From: a virus
IMG/VR virus record: IMGVR_UViG_3300047480_000419
Location: 1 to 41,142 of that record
Reading direction: 5' to 3' (one strand)
Length of the DNA: 41,142 bases
Shown: piece after piece, positions 2,060 to 29,596 of the stretch
Position numbering within the stretch: position 1 is the first letter of the stretch
Layout: each line of letters begins with the position of its first letter
Made by a program: the position numbers and the translations under genes
The notes under the pieces: model-generated
Database searches by the model: none
What the model was told of the DNA's origin: nothing
What the model saw: the letters and a program-made list of their open reading frames with translations, nothing else

Positions 2060-2088
2060 ATTATACCACAACCCTCACAGCTTGTACA
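2060..2088 (-). promoter_or_regulatory. Early-type sigma-70 promoter
   Basis: On the minus strand: TGTACA (2083-2088), 17-nt spacer, TGG-TATAAT (hexamer 2060-2065). Same layout as the other promoters in the window. It drives the zinc-finger gene and the small genes after it; the -10 almost abuts the ATG at 2057. Confidence 0.75.
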
Positions 2089-2593
2089 TGTCCCAATACT
2101 TTGCTGACTTCCATCCGTATTGTAACCATGTTGGTATGCGTGCATCGACCTTCAATTTCCATAGCAAGAATGACGTGAACGTGTTACAGTTCTTCGTTAG
2201 CAAGTTAAACTCTTTTTGGTGTGGGTACTCATAGCATGCATCGACCACGTCATTGAACTTCACTCTGTACGGGTGGATCCATTGGACATGTGGATCGTGG
2301 CCAAACCATTGACGGTTCGGTGCACGTGTACTAATGAACGGGCGGTGTGCATCATACGGTGCATGACGATCACTCGTGAGTATGATCTCTGCTTTCTGTA
2401 CATCGAGCGTCTCACGTGTGGTCAACTCCACTGTCAACCATCGATCATTGTGTTTGAATGCACACCATGAGTGGCGCCCACCGAGGTATCCCTTGATGTG
2501 CCATGCCTGTGCGTTGATGTAGTAGAACCCATCGTATGATAGGTCCATCGGTCTGTACTCTTGGCTGCATTTTTTCCAGTGTTTAAACATCAT
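2075..2593 (-). CDS. Papain/LRAT-like (DUF3750-type) protein
   Basis: 172 residues. A His in GGRHSWCAFKHNDRWLTVEL (about residues 39-58) and a Cys in LLTKNCNTFTSFLLWKL (about 132-148) form the His-first, Cys-later order of permuted NlpC/P60, LRAT and DUF3750 proteins, with the NCNTF box being the most telling. Members act as amidases, peptidases or acyltransferases through a Cys thioester. It is the last gene of the aminotransferase/PP-loop/GNAT cassette (its start overlaps the GNAT stop by 4 nt), so an acyl- or amide-transfer step in that pathway is plausible. Family assignment is by motif only. Confidence 0.5.
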   Translation of the reverse strand: MMFKHWKKCSQEYRPMDLSYDGFYYINAQAWHIKGYLGGRHSWCAFKHNDRWLTVELTTRETLDVQKAEIILTSDRHAPYDAHRPFISTRAPNRQWFGHDPHVQWIHPYRVKFNDVVDACYEYPHQKEFNLLTKNCNTFTSFLLWKLKVDARIPTWLQYGWKSAKYWDMYKL

Positions 2594-2997
2594 AGTCTCT
2601 TCGTTGTTCTGAAGTATTCTAGCTTTCGCCCGTTCTTTACAGCTGATGCAAGCATCGCTTGATTCTCGATGTGTATGTTAGAATTAAGCACACGCATGCC
2701 ATGACGATAACACGTCTCTTCTACTTCAGTATAGATCTCTTGGTACACACCGGTGTTTTGGTATGCCTTATCCACACCCGCAGAATAGATGATCGCTTGC
2801 CTCTTGTCCATGTCCATGTCATACACACATGCACCAATGACCTTGTCGTCTTCCTTTGCATAGGTGACGTACATCGAGTTGTTGATACAGAGCGAGTGCT
2901 CTGCGTGTCCTGCTTTGAGTATGCGTACGAAGTTATCCATCACAAAGATGAATGCCTCTGAGTACGCCAATGTGTCATCAGTAATAATTTGTCTCAT
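2590..2997 (-). CDS. GNAT-family N-acetyltransferase
   Basis: 135 residues. VIGACVYDMDMDKRQAIIYS, then AGVDKAYQNTGVYQEIYTEV (about residues 74-93), is the beta4 strand plus motif A loop (Q/R-x-x-G-x-G/A) that binds the acetyl-CoA pyrophosphate, followed by the RVLNSNIHIENQAML segment typical of motif B. Known GNATs acetylate primary amines of small molecules or proteins. Its start overlaps the end of the PP-loop gene by 20 nt, and the pathway-like neighbours suggest an amine made by the aminotransferase as substrate (inference). Confidence 0.75.
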   Translation of the reverse strand: MRQIITDDTLAYSEAFIFVMDNFVRILKAGHAEHSLCINNSMYVTYAKEDDKVIGACVYDMDMDKRQAIIYSAGVDKAYQNTGVYQEIYTEVEETCYRHGMRVLNSNIHIENQAMLASAVKNGRKLEYFRTTKRL

Positions 2998-3964
2998 CTA
3001 AACTTCTCCATGATTTGACCTCACCCGTGCATGCGTTCAGGTGTCCTAAAATCTCTTCATACTTCCATTTGACCATCTTCGCCTTCGGGTTGATATGATC
3101 GTTCATCTTGTATATCAACTTGCGTACGACGTTCAGGTATGGGTAACCCTCGAATCCTGTGTACTTCTTGCGCTTGACCAATTCTGGCCACTCGTTTGCA
3201 TACATCATGGCTTTGATGCAATACGTGAAGTACATGTATGATGCACCATCACGGATGGCATCACGTGCACCGTTATAGTAGTGCATGACAGGGTGGTCCA
3301 AGAATGCAGCGATCTGTTCTGGTGTGTACATGAAAAACTTCAGGCAACCTTCGATGCCATGGTCCATCATGTACTGCTCGATCGGTGTGGGACCAAGCTC
3401 ATATGCTATATACGTCTCACCCGTCTCCTCGTCTGTCTTCTTCAACAGGATCGGGTCGCCACCACCATTGATGTATGCGTGTGTGTCTTTGTACTTACGT
3501 ACCAAGTGTAGCTGCACTGATATCTCTGCTGAGGTGATGCAGTACTCCTCGACCAATGGGAATAGCTGTGTACAGTAATAGTTATCGAGGTCCAACTCCT
3601 CGATGATTGGTATGATCTTATGCTTTCGACAGAACTCGAATGCGCCATCAATATCAAATCGATTGTATAGTCTACCCTTCGAGCTGACCAATCGTAGGAT
3701 CACAGGAGTGAATGGCACACCTGCTTGCATCAATGATAGACACACCACCTGTGAATCAGATCCACCTGATAACCCAACGAGGATAGGTTTGGTTAGTCGT
3801 TCACCTAATAGTCGTGCTGTGTTGATGCACTCCTCTCTGAACGTACCATGTGGTCGTGTGCATGAACCGATGGACACATTGAACCATCCATTCGGTTCTG
3901 CTTTGTTAAACCAACCATCATTGAAACCCCACTTATAGTGGTTGTTTAGACTATACTCGTGCAT
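2978..3964 (-). CDS. N-type PP-loop ATP pyrophosphatase (asparagine-synthase-like)
   Basis: 328 residues. LVGLSGGSDSQVVCLSLMQA carries the SGGxDS pyrophosphate loop (residues 66-71) of the asparagine synthetase / GMP synthetase / NAD synthetase class, which adenylates a carboxyl or carbonyl and lets an amine attack. No N-terminal glutaminase domain is present, so ammonia or an amino group would come from another source. A second conserved block, YINGGGDPILLKK, lies near residue 170. The ATG at 3964 was chosen because GAGG precedes it by 9 nt; it overlaps the aminotransferase stop by 14 nt. Probable role: amide or ligase step in the cassette (inference). Confidence 0.75.
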   Translation of the reverse strand: MHEYSLNNHYKWGFNDGWFNKAEPNGWFNVSIGSCTRPHGTFREECINTARLLGERLTKPILVGLSGGSDSQVVCLSLMQAGVPFTPVILRLVSSKGRLYNRFDIDGAFEFCRKHKIIPIIEELDLDNYYCTQLFPLVEEYCITSAEISVQLHLVRKYKDTHAYINGGGDPILLKKTDEETGETYIAYELGPTPIEQYMMDHGIEGCLKFFMYTPEQIAAFLDHPVMHYYNGARDAIRDGASYMYFTYCIKAMMYANEWPELVKRKKYTGFEGYPYLNVVRKLIYKMNDHINPKAKMVKWKYEEILGHLNACTGEVKSWRSLDETNYY

Positions 3965-5171
3965 CGTTGATCGCCTCATGTAGTATGCCCAACCCCTCAC
4001 GTAGCACTGACTCCTCAATGGTCAGTGGATACAACAATCGAATGCACTCTGCATTGAAACCACCCGTGATGAGGATCAATCCACTATCACGAGCGCGCTG
4101 TTGTACTGTACGAGATGTAGATGTACTGTTAAACTCAATAGCGATCATCGACCCGACGCCTCTAACGTCTTTAACGTATTCATTATTAAGTGTTGATAAT
4201 GACTCCTTAACGATGCTACCCAGATGACACGATCGTTCAACCAGCTTCTCATCGCGTATGATGTCGAGGACTGCATGCGCTGCTACACACCCAAGGGGAT
4301 TTCCGCTGAACGTACCACCATATGTGGCATCATCCATGATCTCTGCTTTACCTGTGACCGCACTCATTGGTATACCTGCGGCTAGACTCTTTGACATACA
4401 CACCATGTCAGCTACTACGCTGTAGTGCTCCATAGCAAACATCTTACCAGTCCTACCGAACCCACACTGCACCTCGTCGACGATGAATACGATGCCATAA
4501 TCGTTGCATATGTCTCGTATAGCACGCATCATCTTATCTGATGAGATGTTAAAACCACTCTCGCCTTGTATAGGTTCTATGATGATAGCTGCTACATTAG
4601 ATGGATCGACAGTGTACTTAAACAAACGCTTGATATTCTGCCCTGCATCATCATTGAATGGGATGTGATGGATATCGGGTGATGGTGATAGTAGACCATC
4701 TTTATATGGCTTCACCTTACCTGATATCGTGGCTGTGAGGTGTGTACGACCGTGGTACCCACCTTGGAATGATATGATTGCATTCCTACGTGTGTATGTA
4801 CGAGCAACGCGAATGGCGTTCTCTACTGCTGTAGCACCATCGGTGAATAATACCGTACGCTTGTTGAATTTGCCTGGAACTAGGACGTTTAGACGTTCAG
4901 CGAGCCTTACATATGATTCGTATGGCAGTTGCTGAAAGAATGTATGTGTGAACCTATCCACCTGAGTGTGGAGTGCATCTAACACACGTGGATGACTATG
5001 ACCAACGTTTAAGGTCGATGTACCACTAGCAAAGTCGATGTACCTATTTCCATCGATATCCCACACCTCTGCATTCACTGCTCTGTCGACATATACGTCT
5101 GACATGTTTGTGAGACCAAGTGGTGTGTTTGCTTTTCTTAGAGATATTAGATCACTGCGGGTCGTACTCAT
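3951..5171 (-). CDS. Class III PLP aminotransferase (GABA-aminotransferase-like)
   Basis: 406 residues, full length for the family. Hallmarks: DIDGNRYIDFASG (39-50), SFQGGYHGRT (134-143), VFIVDEVQCGFGRTG (228-242; D232 contacts the PLP ring nitrogen), the Schiff-base Lys in CMSKSLAAGIPMSAV (K261), and TFSGNPLG. These enzymes move an amino group between an omega-amine (GABA, ornithine, diaminobutyrate and similar) and 2-oxoglutarate or pyruvate. Substrate cannot be read from sequence. A complete, intact class III aminotransferase is unusual in a phage and is the centre of the overlapping 2075-6434 cassette. Confidence 0.9.
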   Translation of the reverse strand: MSTTRSDLISLRKANTPLGLTNMSDVYVDRAVNAEVWDIDGNRYIDFASGTSTLNVGHSHPRVLDALHTQVDRFTHTFFQQLPYESYVRLAERLNVLVPGKFNKRTVLFTDGATAVENAIRVARTYTRRNAIISFQGGYHGRTHLTATISGKVKPYKDGLLSPSPDIHHIPFNDDAGQNIKRLFKYTVDPSNVAAIIIEPIQGESGFNISSDKMMRAIRDICNDYGIVFIVDEVQCGFGRTGKMFAMEHYSVVADMVCMSKSLAAGIPMSAVTGKAEIMDDATYGGTFSGNPLGCVAAHAVLDIIRDEKLVERSCHLGSIVKESLSTLNNEYVKDVRGVGSMIAIEFNSTSTSRTVQQRARDSGLILITGGFNAECIRLLYPLTIEESVLREGLGILHEAINDARV

Positions 5172-5631
5172 CGATCATCTCTTCATTATTAAGGAATAGT
5201 GTATGCTGACCACGTTGATTTTCTTGTTCTGCATTGACGATGAAGTTACGTAGTGCAAAACCAGCCTCATCGACTGTGATTCGTGATGATAGCTTCTGTG
5301 CTTTCAATTCAGGTGTATCTGGTAGCACACATGTGCTTACCTCTTTGGTTACACCAGCTCTCTTCATGTATCGCTTAAGCGCATTGAAGAACATCTGGTT
5401 GTATCGATTCTTGAAGTTTGCACCAGATACTTGGGAATCCCACAACGTAATGACCTTCAGTTGTAGTTTGTCTGGTGACATGACGTATGACATCGAGATG
5501 AAGCCATTCGCATTGATGATCTCATTACGATATAGGTTGTGTGCGTATAGTAAGTCTTTGTCGAAGGTGTGGAATATGAACCACTCTTCCTTCGTGTCTT
5601 GTCGAGTGAACGTTACTGTTATCTCAAACAT
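5152..5631 (-). CDS. Unknown protein of the biosynthetic cassette
   Basis: 159 residues if begun at the ATG at 5631 (the longer frame needs a TTG start). Soluble, with MFEITVTFTRQDTKEEWFIF at the N-terminus, a central FKNRYNQMFFNALKRYMKRAG helix-rich part and an acidic C-terminus. No family recognised. It overlaps the dioxygenase upstream by 13 nt and the aminotransferase downstream by 20 nt, so it is probably co-translated and may be a partner or a pathway enzyme of new type. Confidence 0.65.
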   Translation of the reverse strand: MFEITVTFTRQDTKEEWFIFHTFDKDLLYAHNLYRNEIINANGFISMSYVMSPDKLQLKVITLWDSQVSGANFKNRYNQMFFNALKRYMKRAGVTKEVSTCVLPDTPELKAQKLSSRITVDEAGFALRNFIVNAEQENQRGQHTLFLNNEEMIDEYDPQ

Positions 5632-6434
5632 CTCTGTTGCATCCAATAATAATTGTCATGTTGTCGATCATATGCTGCTTTCCAATTCTTCACGTCAGTT
5701 TCCCAATCCCCCGTGGGGCGTGGGTCGTGCAGCATATAGTTGTACTTATCTTCTCCTGATACCATCACTGTGGATTCAGGAGATATCTCGAGAGTAGGCT
5801 TGCATTCAGTCGATACGAATAACATACCCATTGCAATCCTATCTGTCGATGCTTTATTTATCCCTGACCCATGGATGATGTGTGGACCATGTATCAATGC
5901 ACAACCACCTGGCACAGTCATCTTCACACGTGGTAGTTTTTTATATGCATCTAAGTCTGCTACTGTTTGTCCACGCATCAGTAGATTACTATCAGTCTTG
6001 ATATCCTCATGCATCGTAGCGCTGTGATGGCTACCTATGATGTATTCGAGTGGACCATGTTCCTCTGTCACATCATCGAATGCAAACCAAACGGTAAGTG
6101 CTTTCTCAGGCTTATCGAAGTTCCAATACGTTGAGTCTTGGTGATAGCTTACGTCTTTACCACCACCTGCTTTTTTAATCCACAGCAGTGTATCCCAACA
6201 ATGGAAGTTTGGACCAATCAGTTGTGATACCACCTCGATGAGGTGTTGGTTCCTCGTGATCTCATCGATCCATGTAAACAACACGTTGCTCTTACAACGA
6301 TAGTCACTGTTCATTAAGTCGAAGCATGCATCAGCTTCTAATAGCTTTTGCTTATAACGTAGAGCATCATCGCGACTCATCAACTTAATTGGTCCTATGA
6401 CACCGTTCTGTGCGTACTGTTGTTTTATATGCAT
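5619..6434 (-). CDS. Phytanoyl-CoA-dioxygenase-like Fe(II)/2OG oxygenase
   Basis: 271 residues. Iron ligands are visible as HQD in VSYHQDSTYW (H98, D100) and H178 in PHIIHGSGIN; R189 in STDRIAMG is placed to bind 2-oxoglutarate. LTVWFAFDDVTEEHGPLEYI and GSHHS are standard PhyH/EctD signatures. The Asp in HxD argues for hydroxylation, not halogenation (halogenases carry Gly/Ala there). GGATCGAAC gives an SD before the ATG. First gene of the cassette; it lies just after a terminator, so it needs readthrough or a promoter I could not find. Confidence 0.88.
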   Translation of the reverse strand: MHIKQQYAQNGVIGPIKLMSRDDALRYKQKLLEADACFDLMNSDYRCKSNVLFTWIDEITRNQHLIEVVSQLIGPNFHCWDTLLWIKKAGGGKDVSYHQDSTYWNFDKPEKALTVWFAFDDVTEEHGPLEYIIGSHHSATMHEDIKTDSNLLMRGQTVADLDAYKKLPRVKMTVPGGCALIHGPHIIHGSGINKASTDRIAMGMLFVSTECKPTLEISPESTVMVSGEDKYNYMLHDPRPTGDWETDVKNWKAAYDRQHDNYYWMQQRCLR

Positions 6435-6444
6435 GTTCGATCCA

Positions 6445-6470
6445 AATAAAAAAGGGGCCAGAGCCCCTAA
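6445..6470 (-). terminator. Rho-independent terminator
   Basis: Minus strand: AGGGGC-TCTG-GCCCCT stem (6453-6468) followed by TTTTTTATTT. It closes the gp32/6488-6916 transcript just before the PhyH cassette. Confidence 0.75.
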
Positions 6471-6942: not shown

Positions 6943-7836
6943 TTAAGCTTCTTGTGCGAGCTTGCTGAAGTAGCTCAGCGTATCGTCATCCTCGTCAGAT
7001 TCGATAGGAGCGCTCTTAGCTTGTGCTGTCTTTCCGACTGGTCTTGCCTCAGCCGATTCATCAAGGGCGATAGACTCAGCAGTTGTACGTGGTGCAGATC
7101 CACCGAGGACTCGCTCAAGCTTTGCTTTGAGTTCGTCGTATGTCTTGTACTTGCTTGGGTCTGTAAACTCTTTGAGTGAGTAGCACTTACCATAGATTTC
7201 CTCCAACTCTGATTCATCAGCTGACACAGGAGAAACTTTATCGAACTCAGATTTGTCGTAGTTGCGATAGCCTTCTACGTTGCGAATCTTAAGCTTAAAG
7301 TTTGCACCTTCCCAAAGGTCGAACGGGTTGATAGGCTGTTCGTCTTGGAATTGTGGCTGCATGACGTCCATCATCTTGTCATAGATCTTCTTACCGTATT
7401 GGAATAGGAATACCTTGCCTTCGTTTTCGGGATGAGCAGGATCAGAGATGACAAGGATGTTAGACACATAGTGAAGACGACGCTTCTGCTTACGTGCGAT
7501 CTCTTTGTCAGATTCTAAACCGCTATTCCAAAGCTTGCTGTTAAGCTCGCCGACTGGGTCTTGTTGACCGATTGATGTGAGAGACTTCTCGATGTACCAA
7601 CCACCAGGACCTTGAAAGCCGTGATCCCAATAACGAGTCCACGGATAATCATCACCTTCGGGTGCAGGTAAGAAACGAATGACAGCGAAGCCGTTACCAG
7701 CTTTGTCTACTTCTGGTTTCCAGAATCGATTGTCTTCGTAGGATTGTTGTTGCTGACCACCGCCGACTTTTTCTGCGGCTGCAACGAGTTTGTTGATTGC
7801 GCTTGCGCGACTTGCTTTGAGATTTGCTAAAGACAT
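6943..7836 (-). CDS. 32: Single-stranded DNA-binding protein gp32
   Basis: 297 residues. Coats ssDNA at the replication fork and in recombination, and recruits gp59/helicase. The family signature SYEDNRFWKPEVDKAGNGFA then VIRFLP (about 32-57) is clear, as are DYPWTRYWDHGFQGPGGWYI and FQYGKKIYDKM. The N-terminal LAST-like basic region (MSLANLKASR) and acidic tail (ESDEDDDTLSYF, about 277-290) used for cooperativity and partner binding are present. Only one Cys occurs, so the zinc site of T4 gp32 (H64, C77, C87, C90) is absent. Own promoter at 7884-7912 and an AAGGAA SD suit high expression. Confidence 0.95.
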   Translation of the reverse strand: MSLANLKASRASAINKLVAAAEKVGGGQQQQSYEDNRFWKPEVDKAGNGFAVIRFLPAPEGDDYPWTRYWDHGFQGPGGWYIEKSLTSIGQQDPVGELNSKLWNSGLESDKEIARKQKRRLHYVSNILVISDPAHPENEGKVFLFQYGKKIYDKMMDVMQPQFQDEQPINPFDLWEGANFKLKIRNVEGYRNYDKSEFDKVSPVSADESELEEIYGKCYSLKEFTDPSKYKTYDELKAKLERVLGGSAPRTTAESIALDESAEARPVGKTAQAKSAPIESDEDDDTLSYFSKLAQEA

Positions 7837-10694: not shown

Positions 10695-11492
10695 TTACTT
10701 AGGCATCATCAAAGCGTTAAAGTTAGCAGGTACAACGATCGTTTGTACTTTGCCGTTCTTGATACCTTCAGAGATGTTCAATGCAGCTTGAGCATTCATA
10801 AAGGCGATTGAACTTGCAGAGTTGTTAGCGAGTGCTGCCATACGTTCAGCTTCTTTACGAGCAGTCTGCACTTCAACTTCTTTCTGCTTATATTCGTTCT
10901 TAGCACGAACGAGTGCATTTGCCGATTCAACAACTGAGTCAGCAGGTACAACGTTACGAATCAACACTTGAGAGATGGTAATGGTACCATCAAGCTTTTC
11001 TTCTGCTAGATTTTTGTTGATCTCTTCTTGGATCTGACGCTCCATGTTCTCACGATTGTCAGCCATATCAAGAGCTTCATACTTACGAGCTGCTTTGTAG
11101 ATTGCGTTACGTGCATTCTGAACGATGTAGTTATACATCACATACGTATCGCCTTTGAACTCAGCGTGGAAGCTACGATTCTTGGTGCTATACAGTTCAG
11201 CGACTTGAGTAGGGTTGATGTTATATACGACCACAGCATCGAGGTCTTTCATCGTGCTGTTGTCTTTTGCAACAGGTGTCATATCATTGAGCACTACGTT
11301 AACGTCTTTCACAGGGAAAGTAAGAACGTCGCCAATGATAACTTGATTGAATGAACCGGGCAAGAGTTCGCCAGGTTTTACTTGCTTGTCGAATCCAACA
11401 CGTACACCAACTTCACCAGTCTCAATGCGAGTACATGCAGGTAGAACGGCGATAGCAGCAACGATGGCCAAAAGCTTCATAGAGGTCTTCAT
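10695..11492 (-). CDS. SPFH/prohibitin-domain lipoprotein
   Basis: 265 residues from the ATG at 11492 (AGGA SD; longer frames lack one). MKTSMKLLAIVAAIAVLPAC is a type II signal peptide whose Cys20 would be lipidated. The rest is an SPFH (band 7) domain: TGEVGVRVGFDKQV, DLDAVVVYNINPTQVAELYS, then the long Ala/Glu-rich helix KQKEVEVQTARKEAERMAAL. SPFH proteins oligomerise into membrane rings and control proteases or membrane domains (for example HflKC). A phage lipoprotein version could alter the envelope or protect from host defence or degradation (inference). Confidence 0.85.
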   Translation of the reverse strand: MKTSMKLLAIVAAIAVLPACTRIETGEVGVRVGFDKQVKPGELLPGSFNQVIIGDVLTFPVKDVNVVLNDMTPVAKDNSTMKDLDAVVVYNINPTQVAELYSTKNRSFHAEFKGDTYVMYNYIVQNARNAIYKAARKYEALDMADNRENMERQIQEEINKNLAEEKLDGTITISQVLIRNVVPADSVVESANALVRAKNEYKQKEVEVQTARKEAERMAALANNSASSIAFMNAQAALNISEGIKNGKVQTIVVPANFNALMMPK

Positions 11493-11500
11493 AATATTCC

Positions 11501-11677
11501 TTAAAACATGATAACGATAGCAGTCATCACAGCGACTGCGAAGAACGAACACACGAGACTATAAAGGGCGAGCTTTGTGAATGCCCACTTTTCTTTACCG
11601 CTCATCTTAATTGCTGTAGCGATTCCACCATAGAACAGCAAGAACAGCAACACAAAAGCCAATATAAGACGAATCAT
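11501..11677 (-). CDS. Small two-helix membrane protein
   Basis: 58 residues: MIRLILAFVLLFLLFYGGIA, a charged loop KMSGKEKWAF, then a second helix ending AVAVMTAIVIMF. Lies 8 nt before the SPFH lipoprotein gene, in one transcript, and may work with it at the membrane. A related short protein starts MIRMVVGFLLVFG at 12586. Confidence 0.6.
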   Translation of the reverse strand: MIRLILAFVLLFLLFYGGIATAIKMSGKEKWAFTKLALYSLVCSFFAVAVMTAIVIMF

Positions 11678-23530: not shown

Positions 23531-24076
23531 TTAAACGTAGTGTAAATATGTGCCCGCGATATATTTGGGGCAAGTTATTGGCGCTAACCCAGCGTGAGGG
23601 TGTGTCCACATTGGCGGAAAGACTAGTAACCTACCAGCTTTCGGTTGAACTCTGATGTTATGATCTATGTCGATGAAAGCGGTCTCACCGCCCTCAGCGA
23701 CGTTATTCAAATAGAAGAACATTACGAGAAACCTTCTAGCTGAAGGGTAATCACCCACGTCAACGTGTTCTCTGAACTCTTCTTTACCACCAATCTCATA
23801 GCGCTTCATACGTACCTGTTCGAAGCCCATTTGTTGTGGAAAGAATTTAATGTCCCACTCTTTTACATAACGATCAATATAAGGTTGAACGTTGTTGAAG
23901 ATCTTGTTCTGTTCTTCTGCGAAGAGCGGGAACTGCCCAAAGTTTACTTCATTGAAGCATTTGAACTCACTATCTCTGCGTACCCACAACGTCTTGTTTC
24001 GTTCGAACTTGTCGATCAACATCTTACAGAAGTCTTCTTCTAAAACATTGTCATATACAGAGATATAGTGTTTCAT
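23531..24076 (-). CDS. Prolyl-4-hydroxylase-like 2OG-Fe(II) oxygenase
   Basis: 181 residues. FREHVDVGDYPSARRFLVMF carries the HxD iron ligands (H104, D106), WTHPHAGLAPI the distal His (H159/H161) and PKYIAGTYLHY the 2OG-binding Lys (K171), with FFYLNNVAEGGETAF between them. T4-like marine phages often carry such enzymes; targets are unknown, with protein side chains, nucleic acids or small molecules all possible. One base links it to the HNH gene upstream. Confidence 0.88.
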   Translation of the reverse strand: MKHYISVYDNVLEEDFCKMLIDKFERNKTLWVRRDSEFKCFNEVNFGQFPLFAEEQNKIFNNVQPYIDRYVKEWDIKFFPQQMGFEQVRMKRYEIGGKEEFREHVDVGDYPSARRFLVMFFYLNNVAEGGETAFIDIDHNIRVQPKAGRLLVFPPMWTHPHAGLAPITCPKYIAGTYLHYV

Positions 24077-24668: not shown

Positions 24669-24744
24669 TGGTACCGGGTGTTGGACTCGAACCAACATCG
24701 CTCTCCTTGTAAGGGAGACGTATCACCTCTCTACGCAACCCGGT
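24669..24744 (-). tRNA. tRNA-Val(TAC)
   Basis: Anticodon arm TCTCC-CTTACAA-GGAGA, T arm GTTGG-TTCGAGT-CCAAC, acceptor ACCGGGT/ACCCGGT, encoded CCA. Reads GUA. Last tRNA of the cluster in transcription order but one. Confidence 0.93.
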
Positions 24745-24750
24745 ATATTT

Positions 24751-24824
24751 TGGGGTGACCGGTGGGTAACGCTCCCACTTAACTGGAGTCACAATCCAGG
24801 TCATTACTTTTATGATACGGCCAC
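24751..24824 (-). tRNA. tRNA-His(GTG), odd T and D loops
   Basis: Acceptor GTGGCCG/CGGTCAC, D arm TCAT-AAAAGTA-ATGA, anticodon arm CTGGA-TTGTGAC-TCCAG, T arm GTGGG-AGCGTTA-CCCAC, C73 and CCA. All stems pair, but the D loop has no GG and the T loop no TTC, so the usual elbow contacts are missing. C73 is a His identity base. Confidence 0.75.
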
Positions 24825-24873
24825 AAGAAAGTAGACTGAACGGAATTATGGGCCGCTCGATCTGCAAATCGAC

Positions 24874-24902
24874 TTGAATATTTTCCATTGCAGTGGTATA
24901 AT
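24874..24902 (+). promoter_or_regulatory. Plus-strand promoter inside the minus tRNA cluster
   Basis: TTGAAT (24874-24879), 17-nt spacer, TGG-TATAAT (hexamer 24897-24902). It has the extended -10 of the phage promoters but faces the opposite way, towards the structured element at 24934-25055. Start expected near 24909. Confidence 0.7.
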
Positions 24903-24933
24903 AATCTCGTCAATCTACTTACTTGTGAAGATC

Positions 24934-25055
24934 ATATAGAAGCTCTTTGTAGCGCTTGAATCTATGGTAACCCATCTTCCTGGCCGGTCCTTGCTTTGGT
25001 CGACGTTGGCAAGTTTTTCGGTGTTCCAGTGTAGTTACTCAAAGAGCTTTTATAT
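24934..25055 (+). ncRNA. Candidate structured RNA
   Basis: Closed by a 16-bp stem, ATATAG-AAGCTCTTTG (24934-24949) with CAAAGAGCTT-TTATAT (25040-25055), one G-U. Nested inside: GGTAAC/GTTACT (24966-24971 with 25034-25039), CTGG/CCAG (24980-24983 with 25026-25029) and CTTGC/GCAAG (24990-24994 with 25009-25013). No ORF. A plus-strand promoter lies just upstream and U-rich DNA follows. T4 makes two stable non-tRNA RNAs in its tRNA cluster; this could be an analogue. Confidence 0.6.
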
Positions 25056-25060
25056 AATTT

Positions 25061-25134
25061 TGGTAGGGGCACAGAGAATCGAACTCTGATTTACTGGTTA
25101 AAAGCCAGTTACTTTGCCATTAAGTTATACCCCC
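25061..25134 (-). tRNA. tRNA-Lys(TTT)
   Basis: Anticodon arm ACTGG-CTTTTAA-CCAGT; T arm CAGAG-TTCGATT-CTCTG; encoded CCA. Reads AAA/AAG. Confidence 0.95.
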
Positions 25135-25162
25135 TCAATCTTTCGGGATTTACGTTTTCGTT

Positions 25163-25393
25163 TCATTTTCGTCTTTTCATCCATTCATAATTGTTACCAT
25201 CTGGTAGTTTACCATCGATAACACTGTCTACGCCTTCTTTACTCACACAGTTTATATCGTGTGATGCCATTACTACAAAACTATTCCTTGTGTTGCGTCT
25301 TAGTCCTTCAGCTAACTTCAATGCTTCTGACAATGACTCTTCATCATAAGATCTAGCTTCACCATACTCATTTGTAAAATATACCTTGTACAT
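25163..25393 (-). CDS. Small protein among tRNAs
   Basis: 76 residues from the ATG at 25393 (AAGGAT 5 nt upstream); a longer frame would run into tRNA-Gly. MYKVYFTNEYGEARSYDEES, then LSEALKLAEGLRRNTRNSFV and VMASHDINCVSKEGVDSVID. Compact alpha/beta with a basic end (KRRK). Unassigned. Confidence 0.65.
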   Translation of the reverse strand: MYKVYFTNEYGEARSYDEESLSEALKLAEGLRRNTRNSFVVMASHDINCVSKEGVDSVIDGKLPDGNNYEWMKRRK

Positions 25394-25401
25394 AAAATCC
25401 T

Positions 25402-25475
25402 TGGAGCGGAATGTGAGAATCGAACTCACGACTTAAGCTTGGAAGGCTAACGTTTTACCATTAAACTAATCCCGC
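25402..25475 (-). tRNA. tRNA-Gly(TCC)
   Basis: Anticodon arm TTAGC-CTTCCAA-GCTTA with one T-T mismatch; T arm TGAG-TTCGATT-CTCA; acceptor GCGGGAT/ATTCCGC; CCA encoded. Reads GGA/GGG. Confidence 0.9.
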
Positions 25476-25477
25476 AT

Positions 25478-25551
25478 TGGCTACCCACCACGGACTCGAA
25501 CCGCGACCAACAGTTTTGGAGACTGACATGCTGCCATTACACCAGTGAGTA
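25478..25551 (-). tRNA. tRNA-Trp(CCA)
   Basis: Anticodon loop CTCCAAA closed by CAGT/ACTG; acceptor TACTCAC/GTGGGTA; G73; CCA encoded. Reads UGG. Confidence 0.92.
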
Positions 25552-25555
25552 ATAT

Positions 25556-25770
25556 TGGGTGGAGATAAGAATTCAATTCGAATCGCGATAAGTCGCTCAG
25601 CAACCTGCAAACTAGCAATATACAACATGCAGGCCACAAAGTATTATAATCCCGTTAACAACAAGCAGCAACTTACGTTATATTTTGACGGGAGCAACTA
25701 ACTATGGGTTGGCCAAATTAGTCGGATTAGCTTTCAAGGCTAACCAATTACTGTTATGGAGTCAGTAATT
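25556..25770. other. Structured gap in tRNA cluster, no gene
   Basis: The 271 nt from 25552 to 25822 hold no convincing ORF or standard tRNA. Visible folds: GCGA-TAAG-TCGC (25585-25596), CCTGCA/TGCAGG (25604-25633), CCCGT/ACGGG (25651-25692), GATTAGC-TTTCAAG-GCTAACC (25725-25745; on minus its loop would read anticodon TGA) and, directly after, AATTACTG/CAGTAATT (25746-25770). Possibly a degenerate tRNA-Ser plus another RNA. A weak minus promoter (TTGCTG, 17 nt, TATAAT at 25643-25648) lies inside. Confidence 0.4.
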
Positions 25771-25822
25771 GTTTGTGCGCTTATCAAATGCAGATTCTCT
25801 TATCCTTCTTACCTCCGAAACT

Positions 25823-26401
25823 TTAAATCAATCCTTCTTCTTGCAGTGTTAACTTAGTTGCATCTGTCAACTGAATTAACGTGTTGACGTTTAGTTGCAA
25901 CAGTTTATCGTTCAAAGCTTGACGCTCGCGCTTCAATGCTTTCAACTCTGCCTTTGCAGCTGCGACGTCTACTTCAGACACCACACCTGTATCGACATTA
26001 TTATAGCGATCGCCATACAATGACATACGCTCGCTAGTTTGCACTTGCTTAAGCTTGACGATACGAGCATTGATCTCGCTGATATCTTTCTTAAGCGTTG
26101 CACTTGCAAACGCATTCTTTACTGCGATACGTGCATCCAACAACTGGATGTCAGCGAGTGTATCACTGATACCACTCTCCACGTTCGCACGTCCTACTGC
26201 TGCACGGATCTGAAATAATGCCTTGTTCAGAGCCTCTTTCTTTTCTAGAGCTTGACGAAACTCTAGAGCAGCTTTACTAATTACACCTTCAACATCACTA
26301 GTGAACTCAGTCACAGTCACGTTATCTTTTGTATTCACCTGACCGATAGAACGGCGGATCTCAGCTTGGATTGCATTTGCTTTACGTAGATTAATTTGCA
26401 T
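25823..26401 (-). CDS. Conserved coiled-coil phage protein
   Basis: 192 residues: MQINLRKANAIQAEIRRSIG, a long helical middle (KKEALNKALFQIRAAVGRAN), a Gly-Asp hinge (LYGDRYNNVDTG) and a second helix pair (AAKAELKALKRERQALNDKL). The shape suggests an antiparallel coiled-coil. The MQI-LRKAN-IQ start recurs in phages (recalled) with no known function. AAGGAA SD, own promoter at 26429-26457. Confidence 0.75.
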   Translation of the reverse strand: MQINLRKANAIQAEIRRSIGQVNTKDNVTVTEFTSDVEGVISKAALEFRQALEKKEALNKALFQIRAAVGRANVESGISDTLADIQLLDARIAVKNAFASATLKKDISEINARIVKLKQVQTSERMSLYGDRYNNVDTGVVSEVDVAAAKAELKALKRERQALNDKLLQLNVNTLIQLTDATKLTLQEEGLI

Positions 26402-26428
26402 ATTATTTCCTTTTCAATCTGTTTGTAT

Positions 26429-26457
26429 ATTATATCACAATAATAACGTGTTGTAAA
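26429..26457 (-). promoter_or_regulatory. Early-type promoter within tRNA cluster
   Basis: Minus strand: TTTACA (26452-26457), 17-nt spacer, TATAAT (26429-26434), here preceded by TGA instead of TGG. Overlaps nothing; drives the 192-aa gene and downstream tRNAs. Confidence 0.8.
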
Positions 26458-26458
26458 C

Positions 26459-26553
26459 TGGTACTCCCGACAGGATTCGAACCTGTATCATCCCCTCATC
26501 TAGAGGCATCGCTGAGGTATAAGCTCAGAGTTTTACCGTTAAACTACAGGAGC
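26459..26553 (-). tRNA. tRNA with anticodon TAT and long variable arm
   Basis: Acceptor GCTCCTG/CGGGAGT, D arm GTTT-AACGGTA-AAAC, anticodon arm CTGAG-CTTATAC-CTCAG, 25-nt variable region with CCTC-TAGAT-GAGG, T arm ACAGG-TTCGAAT-CCTGT, CCA. UAU reads the Ile codon AUA, yet a long variable arm belongs to Leu, Ser and bacterial Tyr tRNAs. Identity uncertain. Confidence 0.85.
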
Positions 26554-26560
26554 AAAAATC

Positions 26561-26636
26561 TGGCACCCCGTAAAGGAATCGAACCTCTACCTCAACGTTC
26601 GTAGCGTTGTATGATCTTCCATTTCACCAACGGGGT
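26561..26636 (-). tRNA. tRNA-Arg(ACG)
   Basis: Anticodon arm CAACG-CTACGAA-CGTTG; acceptor ACCCCGT/ACGGGGT; G73; CCA. A34 needs host TadA to become inosine for CGU/CGC/CGA reading. Confidence 0.93.
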
Positions 26637-26641
26637 AAAGT

Positions 26642-26717
26642 TGGTCCCGACACTTGGTTTCGCGCCAAGCTCTCATGTTCTTCAGACATGCGCTTTCACT
26701 AGATTAGCTTTATCGGG
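26642..26717 (-). tRNA. tRNA-Phe(GAA), odd T loop
   Basis: Anticodon arm CATGT-CTGAAGA-ACATG; acceptor CCCGATA/TGTCGGG; CCA. T arm CTTGG-CGCGAAA-CCAAG lacks the usual TTC, and the D stem is weak (GCT/AGC). Confidence 0.82.
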
Positions 26718-26727
26718 AAACGTTGAA

Positions 26728-26810
26728 TGGTGCCCCAAGAGAGACTCGAACTCTCACGCCGAAGCACTGGCTTCTAAGACCAGCGTGTCTACCAATTCCA
26801 CCATCGGGGC
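26728..26810 (-). tRNA. tRNA-Leu(TAG)
   Basis: Class II. Anticodon arm CTGGT-CTTAGAA-GCCAG; variable arm TGCTTCGGCGT; T arm GAGAG-TTCGAGT-CTCTC; CCA. Reads CUA and wobble partners. Confidence 0.95.
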
Positions 26811-26823
26811 TACTACTAAGATT

Positions 26824-27081
26824 TTATTTTTTGACTTGCTTTTTTGCTACAGGTTTTTTAGCTGCTGGTTTTTTAGCAACTGTCTTCTTCGCTGGCGCTT
26901 TTTTAGCAGGTGCTTTAGCGACTGGCTTTTCAGCTTCTACTTTAGTTTCTACTACTGGTGCACATACAGCTTCATGAACTGCAGCTTTAACTTCTTTATT
27001 TTCTACCTTTGGTTTAGATCTGTTAAGAAGCAAAACACCAAAAACGACGATCACAACAATCGCAATAATAATTTCAACCAT
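26824..27081 (-). CDS. Membrane-anchored histone-H1-like protein
   Basis: 85 residues. MVEIIIAIVVIVVFGVLLLN is a membrane anchor; after an acidic linker comes KAPAKKAPAKKTVAKKPAAK-type repeat, as in histone H1/HU C-tails, which bind DNA or polyanions. AGGAG SD. Placed inside the tRNA cluster. It could tether phage or host DNA at the membrane (inference). Confidence 0.7.
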   Translation of the reverse strand: MVEIIIAIVVIVVFGVLLLNRSKPKVENKEVKAAVHEAVCAPVVETKVEAEKPVAKAPAKKAPAKKTVAKKPAAKKPVAKKQVKK

Positions 27082-27104
27082 TTTATTTCTCCTATGTTAT
27101 TAAA

Positions 27105-27180
27105 TGGAGCGGGAAACGAGTCTCGAACTCGCGACCTCAACCTTGGCAAGGTTGCGCTCTACCAACTGAGCTATTCCCGC
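27105..27180 (-). tRNA. tRNA-Gly(GCC)
   Basis: Anticodon arm CAACC-TTGCCAA-GGTTG; D arm GCTC/GAGC; T arm GCGAG-TTCGAGA-CTCGT; CCA. Reads GGC/GGU. Its 5' end overlaps the stop end of the next gene by 10 nt. Confidence 0.95.
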
Positions 27181-27365
27181 ACTGTATTATCTATAGCATT
27201 TAAAACACAGTCTTCTGTAGATAAAATGTCTTGATAGTCAGACGTTTCTTTTTTATCATCTAAACCATCTCTTTGAAATATTGCATCCCATCGTTGTGCA
27301 TACTCGTCTTGAGATACACTGAATGGACGAGGTTTACTACCTTTACCTGCTTCTCTATTCGACAT
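27171..27365 (-). CDS. Small conserved phage protein
   Basis: 64 residues: MSNREAGKGSKPRPFSVSQD then EYAQRWDAIFQRDGLDDKKE. The GKGSKPRP-(F/Y)S-x-x-x-(Y/F)-x-x-(N/R)WDAIF block recurs in phages (recalled); role unknown. Its final codons overlap the tRNA-Gly gene. Confidence 0.7.
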   Translation of the reverse strand: MSNREAGKGSKPRPFSVSQDEYAQRWDAIFQRDGLDDKKETSDYQDILSTEDCVLNAIDNTVRE

Positions 27366-27383
27366 GATTAATTCCTAATTAAT

Positions 27384-27459
27384 TGGTGGAAGTGGACGGG
27401 ATCGAACCGACGACATCTAGCTTGCAAAGCTAGCGCTCTCCCAACTGAGCTACACCCCC
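27384..27459 (-). tRNA. tRNA-Ala(TGC)
   Basis: Anticodon arm CTAGC-TTTGCAA-GCTAG; acceptor GGGGGTG/CACTTCC; T arm GTCGG-TTCGATC-CCGTC; A73; CCA. The usual Ala G3-U70 position reads G-T here, as expected. Confidence 0.95.
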
Positions 27460-27466
27460 ATAAAAC

Positions 27467-27544
27467 TGGTCCGAGTAGTAGGATTCGAACCTACGACCCT
27501 CTGGTCCCAAACCAGATGCGCTAACCAGACTGCGCTACACTCGG
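27467..27544 (-). tRNA. tRNA-Pro(TGG)
   Basis: Anticodon arm TCTGG-TTTGGGA-CCAGA; T arm GTAGG-TTCGAAT-CCTAC; acceptor CCGAGTG/TACTCGG; CCA. Confidence 0.95.
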
Positions 27545-27551
27545 ATAAACT

Positions 27552-27625
27552 TGGTGCTCCATGATAGAATCGAACTACCTTCTACGGACTACAAAACCGT
27601 CATAATACCAATATACTAATAGAGC
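27552..27625 (-). tRNA. tRNA, probably Thr(TGT), imperfect anticodon stem
   Basis: Acceptor GCTCTAT/ATGGAGC and T arm GGTAG-TTCGATT-CTATC are sound. Anticodon arm ACGGT-TTTGTAG-TCCGT has a T-T mismatch at the closing pair, leaving an effective 9-nt loop, so the anticodon (TGT by position) is not certain; a normal Thr(TGT) is the next gene. Confidence 0.7.
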
Positions 27626-27631
27626 AATTCT

Positions 27632-27707
27632 TGGTGCTGGTTGTCGGATTCGAACTGACGACCTACTGCTTACAAGGCAGTTGCTCTACCAACTGAGCTA
27701 AACCAGC
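27632..27707 (-). tRNA. tRNA-Thr(TGT)
   Basis: Anticodon arm ACTGC-CTTGTAA-GCAGT; acceptor GCTGGTT/AACCAGC; T arm GTCAG-TTCGAAT-CCGAC; CCA. Reads ACA and wobble partners. Confidence 0.95.
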
Positions 27708-27723
27708 ATAAACTTATATATCT

Positions 27724-27808
27724 TGGTGGGGACAGAAGGATTCGCACCTACTCATCCGAAGAAACTGATTTACAGTCAGCCGCGACTCTCTAACTTCGCC
27801 GTGTCCCC
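27724..27808 (-). tRNA. tRNA-Tyr(GTA)
   Basis: Class II bacterial type with long variable arm; anticodon arm GCTGA-CTGTAAA-TCAGT; acceptor GGGGACA/TGTCCCC; CCA. T loop TGCGAAT is slightly unusual and the T stem has one mismatch. Confidence 0.93.
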
Positions 27809-27815
27809 ATAAAAT

Positions 27816-27893
27816 TGGCTGTGCTCCTAGGGATCGAACCTAGCTCATTCCTGATTAACAGTCAGGCGCATACACCTTGCTTGCTCGAGCACA
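27816..27893 (-). tRNA. tRNA-Asn(GTT)
   Basis: Anticodon arm CCTGA-CTGTTAA-TCAGG; acceptor TGTGCTC/GAGCACA; G73; T arm CTAGG-TTCGATC-CCTAG; CCA. Confidence 0.94.
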
Positions 27894-27901
27894 ATAAAAC
27901 T

Positions 27902-27977
27902 TGGTTGCGGAGGATGGATTCGAACCACCGTCTTCTAGCTTATGAGGCTAGTAGTCTGACCACTGACGTACTCCGCG
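27902..27977 (-). tRNA. tRNA-Met(CAT), initiator-like
   Basis: Acceptor 5' CGCGGAG faces CTCCGCA, leaving C1 opposite A72 unpaired, the hallmark of bacterial initiator tRNA. Anticodon arm CTAGC-CTCATAA-GCTAG lacks the three G-C pairs usual in tRNA-fMet. A73, CCA encoded. Confidence 0.85.
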
Positions 27978-27985
27978 ATAATCTT

Positions 27986-28060
27986 TGGTGGTAATGGTTG
28001 GATTCGAACCAACGTTAGCTTCCGTATGAAGGAAGTGCAAGGCCTCTTTGCTACATTACC
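27986..28060 (-). tRNA. tRNA-Met(CAT), elongator type
   Basis: Anticodon arm CTTCC-TTCATAC-GGAAG; fully paired acceptor GGTAATG/CATTACC; A73; CCA. No C1-A72 mismatch, so elongator, although a lysidine Ile tRNA cannot be excluded from the anticodon alone. Confidence 0.88.
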
Positions 28061-28063
28061 ATC

Positions 28064-28138
28064 TGGTGGGCCGAGTAGGAATTGAACCTACACTCAATCG
28101 ATTATGAGTCGACTGCTTTACCATTAAGCTATCGGCCC
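28064..28138 (-). tRNA. tRNA-Ile2(CAT)
   Basis: Acceptor GGGCCGA/TCGGCCC; anticodon arm GTCGA-CTCATAA-TCGAT. The GCGACTCATAATCGC-like arm matches the bacterial ileX type, whose C34 is changed to lysidine by TilS so it reads AUA. Confidence 0.8.
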
Positions 28139-28144
28139 AAATTC

Positions 28145-28223
28145 TGGCGATACGTAGGGGATTCGAACCCCTGATCTCTTGCGTGACAAGCAAGTGCATT
28201 AAGCCAGACTATGCTAACGTACC
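28145..28223 (-). tRNA. tRNA-Asp(GTC)
   Basis: Anticodon arm CTTGC-TTGTCAC-GCAAG; T arm AGGGG-TTCGAAT-CCCCT; acceptor GGTACGT/ACGTATC; G73; CCA. The 5' three bases are also the start of the 20-bp inverted repeat next door. Confidence 0.94.
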
Positions 28224-28347
28224 CTTAATTATGTTGTTTGCACTATATGCTATAGTTCAACACGCTTTACGATCGATTACGGTTTATTGCTATAGTTACA
28301 TAACGCTTGATCATGCTTCTGAGCTTACAAACAACATAATTAAGGGT
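28221..28347. ncRNA. Candidate RNA closed by a perfect 20-bp stem
   Basis: ACCCTTAATTATGTTGTTTG (28221-28240) and its exact reverse complement (28328-28347) enclose 87 nt holding two copies of TGCTATAGTT. No ORF or tRNA fits inside. The foot of the stem touches the 5' end of tRNA-Asp, so it would be released by the same 5' processing. Strand unknown; the tRNA transcript (minus) would include it. Confidence 0.6.
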
Positions 28348-28353
28348 GCTATG

Positions 28354-28463
28354 TTTGGTAACTACTGCAAGTATACTTACAGTCACCTTAAGCGAGGCGA
28401 TGCCGGTTTATGTTGTGCTGAACCGTACAATTAACAGCGATAGTTGATTTAGATACTACCAAA
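28354..28463. ncRNA. Second stem-closed element
   Basis: TTTGGTA (28354-28360) pairs TACCAAA (28457-28463). Inside: ACTGCAAGTATACTTACAGT, a hairpin with one mismatch, and CGGTT/AACCG (28404-28425). The remaining 100 nt up to tRNA-Glu contain TTAGTTT/AAACTAA (28495-28516) but no gene. Confidence 0.4.
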
Positions 28464-28571
28464 ATCTGGGCCCATTGAACGTGATACCCCTACGTTAGTT
28501 TTGCATATCAAACTAAATAACTTACCTTGCTTTTACATCTCGAGGAAGATGACGCTGTTACCAGCAACGTT

Positions 28572-28646
28572 TGGTACACGGTACGGGAATCGAACCCGTC
28601 TTACATACGTGAAAGGCATGTGTCCTAACCGATAGACGAACCGTGC
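28572..28646 (-). tRNA. tRNA-Glu(TTC)
   Basis: Anticodon arm CATGC-CTTTCAC-GTATG; acceptor GCACGGT/ACCGTGT; T arm CGGG-TTCGATT-CCCG; CCA. Confidence 0.94.
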
Positions 28647-28653
28647 ATTAAAT

Positions 28654-28736
28654 TGGTGCGAGTGGACGGACTCGAACCGTCAAGCCGAAGCGGGAGATTT
28701 TAAGTCTCCTGAGTTTACCAATTTCTCCACACTCGC
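28654..28736 (-). tRNA. tRNA-Leu(TAA)
   Basis: Class II; anticodon arm GGAGA-CTTAAAA-TCTCC; variable arm with CGCTTCGGCTT; T arm GACGG-TTCGAGT-CCGTC; CCA. Reads UUA. Confidence 0.95.
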
Positions 28737-28744
28737 AAGCTTAT

Positions 28745-28773
28745 ATTATACCATACTTTTTTATTGTTGTACA
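28745..28773 (-). promoter_or_regulatory. Early-type promoter within tRNA cluster
   Basis: Minus strand: TGTACA (28768-28773), 17-nt spacer, TGG-TATAAT (hexamer 28745-28750). Lies between tRNA-Arg(TCT) and tRNA-Leu(TAA) and should transcribe the latter onward. Confidence 0.85.
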
Positions 28774-28774
28774 C

Positions 28775-28849
28775 TGGCGCGGCCGATAGGACTCGAACCT
28801 ACATAGGACGCTTTAGAAGAGCGTTGCCTTTCCATTAGACTACGGCCGC
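28775..28849 (-). tRNA. tRNA-Arg(TCT)
   Basis: Anticodon arm ACGCT-CTTCTAA-AGCGT; acceptor GCGGCCG/CGGCCGC; T arm GTAGG-TTCGAGT-CCTAT; CCA. Reads AGA, a common phage tRNA. Confidence 0.95.
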
Positions 28850-28855
28850 AATGTT

Positions 28856-28933
28856 TGGAGCACCGAGCAGGATTTGAACCTGCGGTTTTACTGTTTTGCA
28901 GACAGTTGCGTTGGACCTCTCCGCCATCGGTGC
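28856..28933 (-). tRNA. tRNA-Cys(GCA)
   Basis: Anticodon arm ACTGT-CTGCAAA-ACAGT; acceptor GCACCGA/TCGGTGC; T73; T arm GCAGG-TTCAAAT-CCTGC; CCA. Confidence 0.95.
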
Positions 28934-28934
28934 A

Positions 28935-28989
28935 TAATGTATCATAAAAGAATCATTAAGCTACTTAATGCCGCTTTTATGATCCATTA
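28935..28989. repeat. Long AT-rich hairpin between tRNAs
   Basis: TAATG, ATCATAAAAG and CATTAAG pair in series with CTTAATG, CTTTTATGAT and CATTA: 22 bp with small internal loops and a CTA loop. Fills the whole gap between tRNA-Cys and tRNA-Leu(CAA). RNase processing site, cruciform or weak terminator. Confidence 0.6.
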
Positions 28990-28992
28990 TTT

Positions 28993-29070
28993 TGGTACCC
29001 TCGCTCAGATTCGAACTGAGAGAACTTCTCCTTTTGAGAGAGATGACTTTACCAATTTGTCCACGAGGGC
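28993..29070 (-). tRNA. tRNA-Leu(CAA) with short variable loop
   Basis: Acceptor GCCCTCG/CGAGGGT; anticodon arm TCTCT-CTCAAAA-GGAGA; T arm CTCAG-TTCGAAT-CTGAG; CCA. The region between anticodon and T stems is only 6 nt, whereas Leu tRNAs normally carry a long arm. CAA reads UUG. Confidence 0.82.
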
Positions 29071-29075
29071 ATAGT

Positions 29076-29150
29076 TGGTAGCCATGGACAATTTCGAAAT
29101 GTCGACCTATCGCTTATCAAGCGATTGCTCTTCCTCTGAGCTACACGGCT
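29076..29150 (-). tRNA. tRNA-Ile(GAT)
   Basis: Anticodon arm ATCGC-TTGATAA-GCGAT; acceptor AGCCGTG/CATGGCT; T arm GACAT-TTCGAAA-TTGTC with one mismatch; CCA. Confidence 0.92.
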
Positions 29151-29155
29151 AAATT

Positions 29156-29246
29156 TGGTGGTAGATATAGGATTCGAACCTATGGACCGTTCGACACGAT
29201 CTTCGGTTTAGCAAACCGACGCAATCAGCCTCTCTGCCAATCTACC
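29156..29246 (-). tRNA. tRNA-Ser(GCT)
   Basis: Class II; anticodon arm TCGGT-TTGCTAA-ACCGA; long variable arm; acceptor GGTAGAT/ATCTACC; CCA. Reads AGC/AGU. The next inverted repeat starts exactly at its 5' end. Confidence 0.95.
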
Positions 29247-29325
29247 ATATTGAAACACACTCAGAGTCGTCTTACTCCATCACTCGACGCAACGGGCTAA
29301 CCGGGGATTCAATGTGTTTCAATAT
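29247..29325. ncRNA. Candidate RNA closed by a 13-bp stem
   Basis: ATATTGAAACACA (29247-29259) and TGTGTTTCAATAT (29313-29325) are exact complements around 53 nt that include GTCG/CGAC pairing and CCCCGG-type G/C runs. Begins at the mature 5' end of tRNA-Ser(GCT). No ORF. Confidence 0.55.
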
Positions 29326-29332
29326 AGCGTAT

Positions 29333-29446
29333 CACCATTTTTAAGTACACCTGCAGGAATTGAACCTGCCAACCCCACCAAAAGGTGAAGCTGTTTCCGC
29401 AACATCGGCTGGATCCGTTTAGCCTTTGATGTACTTAAAAATGGTG
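29333..29446 (-). ncRNA. Class-II tRNA-like RNA inside a 17-bp clamp
   Basis: CACCATTTTTAAGTACA (29333-29349) is the exact complement of 29430-29446. On minus, 29345-29433 reads as a tRNA: acceptor TACATCA/AGGTGTA (6 of 7), D arm GGCT-AAACGGATCC-AGCC, long variable arm CTTCACC-TTTT-GGTGGGG, T arm GCAGG-TTCAATT-CCTGC. The anticodon arm (GATGT-TGCGGAA-ACAGC) is poor and no CCA is encoded. The clamp lengthens the acceptor stem to over 20 bp. Confidence 0.55.
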
Positions 29447-29533
29447 GAAGCGGTGAGATTCGAACTCACGGACCGCGCTAACGATCGTCTGTTTTCAAGA
29501 CAGGTGCAATAAACCGGGCTCTGCCACGCTTCC
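29442..29533 (-). tRNA. tRNA-Ser(TGA)
   Basis: Class II; anticodon loop CTTGAAA closed by CTGT/ACAG; acceptor GGAAGCG/CGCTTCC; T arm GTGAG-TTCGAAT-CTCAC; CCA. The CCA overlaps the clamp of the tRNA-like element. Confidence 0.94.
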
Positions 29534-29566
29534 AAATGCAATCCAAGTTTTTAAAGAACGTAGTGT

Positions 29567-29595
29567 ATTATACCATACACTTTACCAGTTGTAAA
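29567..29595 (-). promoter_or_regulatory. Early-type promoter within tRNA cluster
   Basis: Minus strand: TTTACA (29590-29595), 17-nt spacer, TGG-TATAAT (hexamer 29567-29572). Between tRNA-Gln and tRNA-Ser(TGA). Confidence 0.85.
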
Positions 29596-29596
29596 C

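Follow-up and report, generated by a model that had tools for sequence, protein, structure and literature searches.

A cassette of six overlapping genes in a T4-like phage fragment

The stretch of DNA analyzed here (the window) is IMG/VR record IMGVR_UViG_3300047480_000419, a 41,142-base fragment that we read as part of a T4-like phage because its gp32 gene (6943-7836) matches single-stranded DNA-binding proteins from phages of Synechococcus and Sinorhizobium. A cassette of six minus-strand genes (2075-6434, ~4.4 kb), combining an oxygenase, an aminotransferase, and a PP-loop enzyme with three smaller proteins, follows downstream of gp32 and another open reading frame (ORF). The genes, in order of transcription, and two sequence features at the ends of the cassette are listed below, with AlphaFold 2 given as AF2, its predicted local distance difference test score as pLDDT, and antibiotic-biosynthesis monooxygenase as ABM.

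5619..6434, minus strand: PhyH-family Fe(II)/2-oxoglutarate (2OG) oxygenase, HxD type (Pfam PF05721, E=5e-21; conserved residues)
5152..5631, minus strand: probable ABM-type alpha/beta barrel protein, cofactor-independent oxygenase-like fold (AF2 and Foldseek)
3951..5171, minus strand: class-III aminotransferase, nearest to the PuuE/GabT 4-aminobutyrate (GABA) aminotransferases (family E=9e-116; K261)
2978..3964, minus strand: stand-alone PP-loop ATP pyrophosphatase (AF2 pLDDT 88.8; Foldseek; SGGxDS)
2590..2997, minus strand: GNAT N-acetyltransferase (PF00583, E=8e-8)
2075..2593, minus strand: PPPDE/DUF3750-like papain-fold protein with a candidate His41/Cys136 dyad (PF05903/PF12570 in homologs)
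6453..6468, minus strand: strong terminator-like hairpin, AGGGGCTCTGGCCCCT followed by TTTTTT
2060..2088, minus strand: sigma-70-like promoter, TGTACA-17-TATAAT (pattern match only)

With the best-supported starts (ATG 3964 for the PP-loop gene and, as in relatives, ATG 5631 for the ABM-candidate gene), successive genes overlap by 13, 20, 14, 20, and 4 nucleotides (nt) in transcription order; a TTG start at 5646 for the ABM-candidate gene would make the first overlap 28 nt instead of 13. A preliminary description of this DNA had reported six overlapping minus-strand genes, four of them with intact catalytic motifs. All six ORFs were found at its coordinates, and the PhyH HxD/H/R motif, K261 of the aminotransferase, and the SGGxDS loop proved invariant in the homologs compared. 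The hairpin lies 18 nt ahead of the PhyH start codon and divides the cassette from gp32 and the adjoining ORF, while the promoter-like site lies at the opposite end and is directed at the next downstream gene. Promoter-like matches in the cassette region were no more numerous than in shuffled sequence, and the T4 late-promoter motif TATAAATA was no more frequent than expected by chance and did not occur at the cassette.

Recurrence of the cassette in uncultured phages

Profile searches of IMG/VR returned 16 loci besides the window for PhyH and 15 for the PP-loop protein. A PPPDE gene lies within ~1.7 kb of PhyH in 13 of the 16 loci, or in 14 of 17 places counting the window; the exceptions are L003, whose contig ends after the PP-loop gene, and L019 and L020, from which PPPDE is absent. 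A separate search for PPPDE returned 11 loci, every one of them on a contig already holding PhyH. The commonest form of the locus consists of gp46, GNAT, PhyH, PPPDE, PP-loop, and a second PP-loop gene (L008, L010, L011, L015, and L016), and the version in L018 has an added tryptophan halogenase. The complete six-gene set is found again in L021, on a 177-kb contig, in the order GNAT, PhyH, PPPDE, ABM-candidate gene, aminotransferase, PP-loop, GNAT. The core is PhyH, PPPDE, and PP-loop, usually with GNAT, and the aminotransferase and ABM-candidate genes form an optional pair outside it. Cassette genes were mostly not found apart with unrelated partners, except at the PhyH locus of L019 and L020; on the L019 contig, PhyH lies near gp32, and GNAT, PP-loop, and second PP-loop genes are grouped at a separate place (L028).

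The optional pair is confined to one clade of PP-loop proteins, comprising those of the window, L003, and L021 (100/100 support). The aminotransferases of the same three loci also form one clade (98/98), outside which fall the 13 sampled bacterial-type sequences included in the tree. Together, these two clades argue against repeated independent acquisition of the pair. A dedicated search for the ABM-candidate gene found homologs only in L003 and L021, both of which carry the aminotransferase, and the aminotransferase is missing from most relatives, the L004 and L006 contigs included. The PhyH sequence of L021 departs from the grouping of the window, L003, and L021, on long branches that leave its exact placement unsure, and this departure suggests that parts have been exchanged between cassettes.

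Its recurrence on contigs independent of one another shows that the gene set is not a chance grouping. The genes are intact, overlapping, and inherited jointly as a module at differing genomic sites of phages and also in a bacterium (see below), a distribution expected of a mobile pathway that comes in variants. As in a phage-encoded biosynthetic gene cluster (pBGC), a phage genome here carries several biosynthetic enzymes in an operon that is both conserved and co-inherited. In a collection of isolated phages, the PP-loop, PPPDE, and second PP-loop families had no match, PhyH had a single match at 30%, and a near-identity search with the first 20 kb of the window returned gp32-type matches only. 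A literature search likewise found nothing relevant to this gene set, in keeping with the earlier remark that no phage pathway is known to combine exactly these genes.

Other tailoring genes were seen on the contigs of relatives. L042 (5000-16001) and L044 (1-11162) belong to one 177-kb contig on which more than 20 biosynthetic-type genes lie amid tail-fiber-like genes, with the full six-gene cassette last. A larger second tailoring cluster with PP-loop proteins and a desaturase directly follows ThyX in L040 (4580-15206), L041, and L043, and includes radical SAM, TauD, Asp hydroxylase, and SDR proteins in L040 and L041 only. A GARS-like ATP-grasp gene paired with a member of a third PP-loop family occurs near PhyH in L013 (2462-7384) and L014 (5379-7900), twice in L013.

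A bacterial counterpart

The PP-loop profile found one locus among GTDB genomes, on contig JAQGMR010000075.1 of a Herminiimonas sp. metagenome-assembled genome (MAG) (L045), the only one of 399 sampled genomes of its phylum to hold this family. Homologs of PP-loop (39%), PhyH (52%), and PPPDE (37%) adjoin one another there as in the window. Unlike in the window, the cluster also contains a cupin, an AsnB-like enzyme, a 115-amino-acid (115-aa) protein, and a probable ATP-grasp enzyme, all preceding the trio, as well as a TPR protein. An AsnB-like enzyme, an ATP-grasp enzyme, and a cupin are a combination typical of amide-forming natural-product clusters. GNAT, aminotransferase, and ABM genes were not seen in the stretch of this contig that was examined. 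We take the contig to be bacterial given a downstream PhoD phosphatase and a G+C content of 58% (versus 42% in the window), although binning errors are possible in MAGs. A PhyH pattern scan of GTDB genomes confirmed no homolog although the Herminiimonas relative exists there, so a negative result from scanning of this kind carries little weight. Bacterial PPPDE-like matches at L061 and L062 were set aside, as they have unrelated surroundings and, by eye, a DUF3750-type appearance.

Predicted chemistry of the individual proteins

Residues H98, D100, H188, and R199 of PhyH, which make up the HxD/H/R motif, are invariant in all 18 homologs. SyrB2-type halogenases carry an HxG/A signature in which Gly or Ala replaces the iron-binding Asp, a signature absent here given the invariant D100. 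By this known halogenase rule, PhyH is predicted to hydroxylate rather than halogenate. Its closest solved relative is 6zyk/6zyl. Outside the cassette, a further 2OG-Fe(II) oxygenase-like ORF, by eye of the prolyl-4-hydroxylase type, lies at 23531-24076 of the window.

The second gene probably encodes an ABM-fold protein, an assignment that we treat as a lead: its AF2 model is weak (pLDDT 60), and its best Foldseek matches are SnoaB and other ABM proteins, found among unrelated ferredoxin-like folds. The aminotransferase is ~42 to 48% identical to PuuE/GabT and shares their catalytic lysine, K261, which is invariant across the three phage copies. Its best-scoring models are GABA aminotransferases, yet the scores (488 versus 724 and 472.7 versus 506.65 bits) fall below the curated equivalog cutoffs, which, together with the separate phage clade, sets it apart from PuuE/GabT.

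The PP-loop protein has a marginal sequence-profile match, and its fold is backed by the confident AF2 model and by Foldseek; SGGxDS, the N-type PP-loop motif of the asparagine/beta-lactam synthetase family, is invariant in 14 homologs, as are C46, C75, and C112. Searches of the model against a viral structure library matched proteins of uncultured Caudovirales, and searches against the PDB placed asparagine and beta-lactam synthetases, through their synthetase domains, at the top. Because the PDB match is partial, we infer amide formation rather than assign it, and we stop short of proposing a beta-lactam-synthetase-like role, which was also weighed.

The GNAT protein is 47% identical to the L021 GNAT that adjoins the PP-loop gene. 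The last protein of the cassette matches PPPDE (C97) at E=1e-4, which is below the gathering cutoff. Among 13 homologs, PF05903 was detected in 11 and PF12570 in 6, and H41 and C136 are invariant in all. The preliminary description had called this protein LRAT/papain, for which PPPDE/DUF3750-like is the better label. From family membership, we infer N-acetylation for GNAT and acyl transfer within the cassette.

A proposed pathway for a small amine- or amide-containing compound

We propose, at about an even chance, that the six genes form a single biosynthetic operon with coupled translation and that T4-like phages infecting uncultured bacteria use it to produce a small compound containing an amine or amide, with a soluble metabolite used during infection as our first choice of product. 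In such a pathway, PhyH would hydroxylate a precursor, and the ABM-like protein may help in a further oxidation. The GABA-type aminotransferase would then convert the resulting carbonyl to an amine or supply an omega-amino acid, and the PP-loop enzyme would adenylate a carboxylate and join it to an amine. GNAT could acylate an amine, and the PPPDE enzyme could hydrolyze or transfer an acyl group via a Cys thioester. The occurrence of the core in distantly related phages indicates that the genes behave as one pathway, and relatives hold more tailoring enzymes (tryptophan halogenase, radical SAM, TauD, Asp hydroxylase, desaturase, and SDR). A joint pathway with amine or amide chemistry had been suggested in the preliminary description; that part is retained, given that the core is kept together and the families fit, while its example of DNA base hypermodification fares poorly in the absence of ThyA and TGT families from relatives (see below).

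Several observations weigh against this proposal. The cassette contains no scaffold enzyme (nonribosomal peptide synthetase or polyketide synthase) and no obvious precursor peptide, nor an intergenic gap to hold one; the 115-aa protein, a candidate precursor of a ribosomally synthesized and posttranslationally modified peptide, is found in the bacterial cluster only, with nothing matching it at the phage loci. The similarity of the PP-loop protein to asparagine and beta-lactam synthetases is weak (query-normalized TM score <=0.44), sulfur-transferring PP-loop enzymes score comparably, and an hhalign comparison with the bacterial AsnB-like protein matched 29 columns. The position of the hairpin leaves no room for a promoter before PhyH, and the cassette could thus be expressed only by read-through or from a start within the hairpin region. 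Furthermore, the same enzymes could equally modify a macromolecule.

Among known systems, the nearest in kind are the halogenase/2OG-oxygenase arrays of cyanophages (Syn9, Sf-CH11, and S-B64; the family to which VirX1 of cyanophage Syn10 belongs), which are likewise overlapping natural-product-type tailoring genes in T4-like phages. The cassette version in L018 provides a link to them, since its tryptophan halogenase is of the cyanophage family. However, no PP-loop, PPPDE, or PhyH matches were found in those cyanophages, and the window cassette lacks a halogenase. As summarized in PMC10452541, pBGCs are rare and mostly encode bacteriocins of temperate phages (Dragos et al. 2021), and antiSMASH detected zero BGCs in 153 cyanophages. 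The cassette resembles pBGCs in its clustering of biosynthetic genes on a phage genome and differs in being nonbacteriocin and in belonging to T4-like phages. The gene set matches neither the cyanophage arrays nor described pBGCs. More tentatively than the operon itself, we suggest that the cassette may represent a mobile, nonbacteriocin natural-product pathway of an undescribed type in T4-like phages, whose amide or amine compound would act on the host bacterium or its neighbors during infection. Searches with PADLOC anti-phage defense models matched no family to the cassette at E<=0.01. An enzyme cassette that is conserved in T4-like phages, moves between genomic sites, and also occurs in a bacterium would mean that these phages, too, run a dedicated chemistry of small molecules or of modification, and six genes in 4.4 kb are small enough for expression as a whole, so the question of the product is directly testable.

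Alternative explanations

The best-surviving alternative, though still an unlikely one, is that the cassette modifies virion proteins such as tail fibers by hydroxylation, amidation, or acylation and thereby alters phage adsorption to the host. The idea arises because some clusters lie beside tail fibers: the larger cluster in L042/L044 sits by eye among tail-fiber-like genes, the cyanophage arrays are likewise near tail fiber genes, and many prolyl- and aspartyl-type oxygenases are close by in relatives. However, the window cassette adjoins gp32 and the L010 type adjoins gp46, with no structural genes near, and small molecules are what a GABA-type aminotransferase works on. A cluster whose site varies may also neighbor tail fibers without acting on them.

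Amine- and amide-decorated DNA bases exist in phages, and the cassette might make or attach such a hypermodified base. We screened seven relatives, five of them 159 to 231 kb long, for DNA-modification enzymes. ThyA (PF00303) was found in none of the seven, the window itself being only a 41-kb fragment, and TGT (PF01702) also in none, although a distant DpdA could escape this search. A Tet/JBP protein was present in one relative and missing from the other six, and the cassette has no visible DNA-acting transferase. The lack of ThyA/TGT-type enzymes from all seven relatives and the single Tet/JBP protein make DNA hypermodification improbable, while three relatives in which the second tailoring cluster begins right behind a thymidylate synthase of the ThyX type keep it under consideration.

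Slightly less probable still is a cassette that thiolates tRNA or a small molecule, with the PP-loop protein acting as a sulfur-transferring thiolase and the other genes serving the same sulfur-containing product. The best PDB sequence match of the PP-loop protein is the NcsA thiolase, with MnmA lower down, TtuA/NcsA are among its structural matches, the similarity to thiolases being weak, and it has the three invariant cysteines. Asparagine and beta-lactam synthetases nevertheless lead the structural matches, the cysteines flank the ATP loop in no obvious fit to the layout of thiolase cluster ligands, and thiolation leaves the amine-handling partner genes unexplained. Least probable of all is that separate auxiliary metabolic genes (e.g., a GABA-shunt enzyme) lie together by chance: the aminotransferase is near ordinary GabT/PuuE and missing from most relatives, but it occurs solely alongside the ABM-candidate gene and a single PP-loop clade, phages that differ in the genomic site of the core have nevertheless kept it together, and every cassette gene overlaps its neighbor.

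Other features of the window

ARAGORN predicted 27 tRNA genes with many anticodons within ~5 kb of the minus strand (24669-29670). By eye, adjoining ORFs at 30660-31196 and 30008-30520 resemble a peroxiredoxin and an AhpD-like protein, and an ORF at 10695-11552 is prohibitin/SPFH-like with a lipoprotein-like start.

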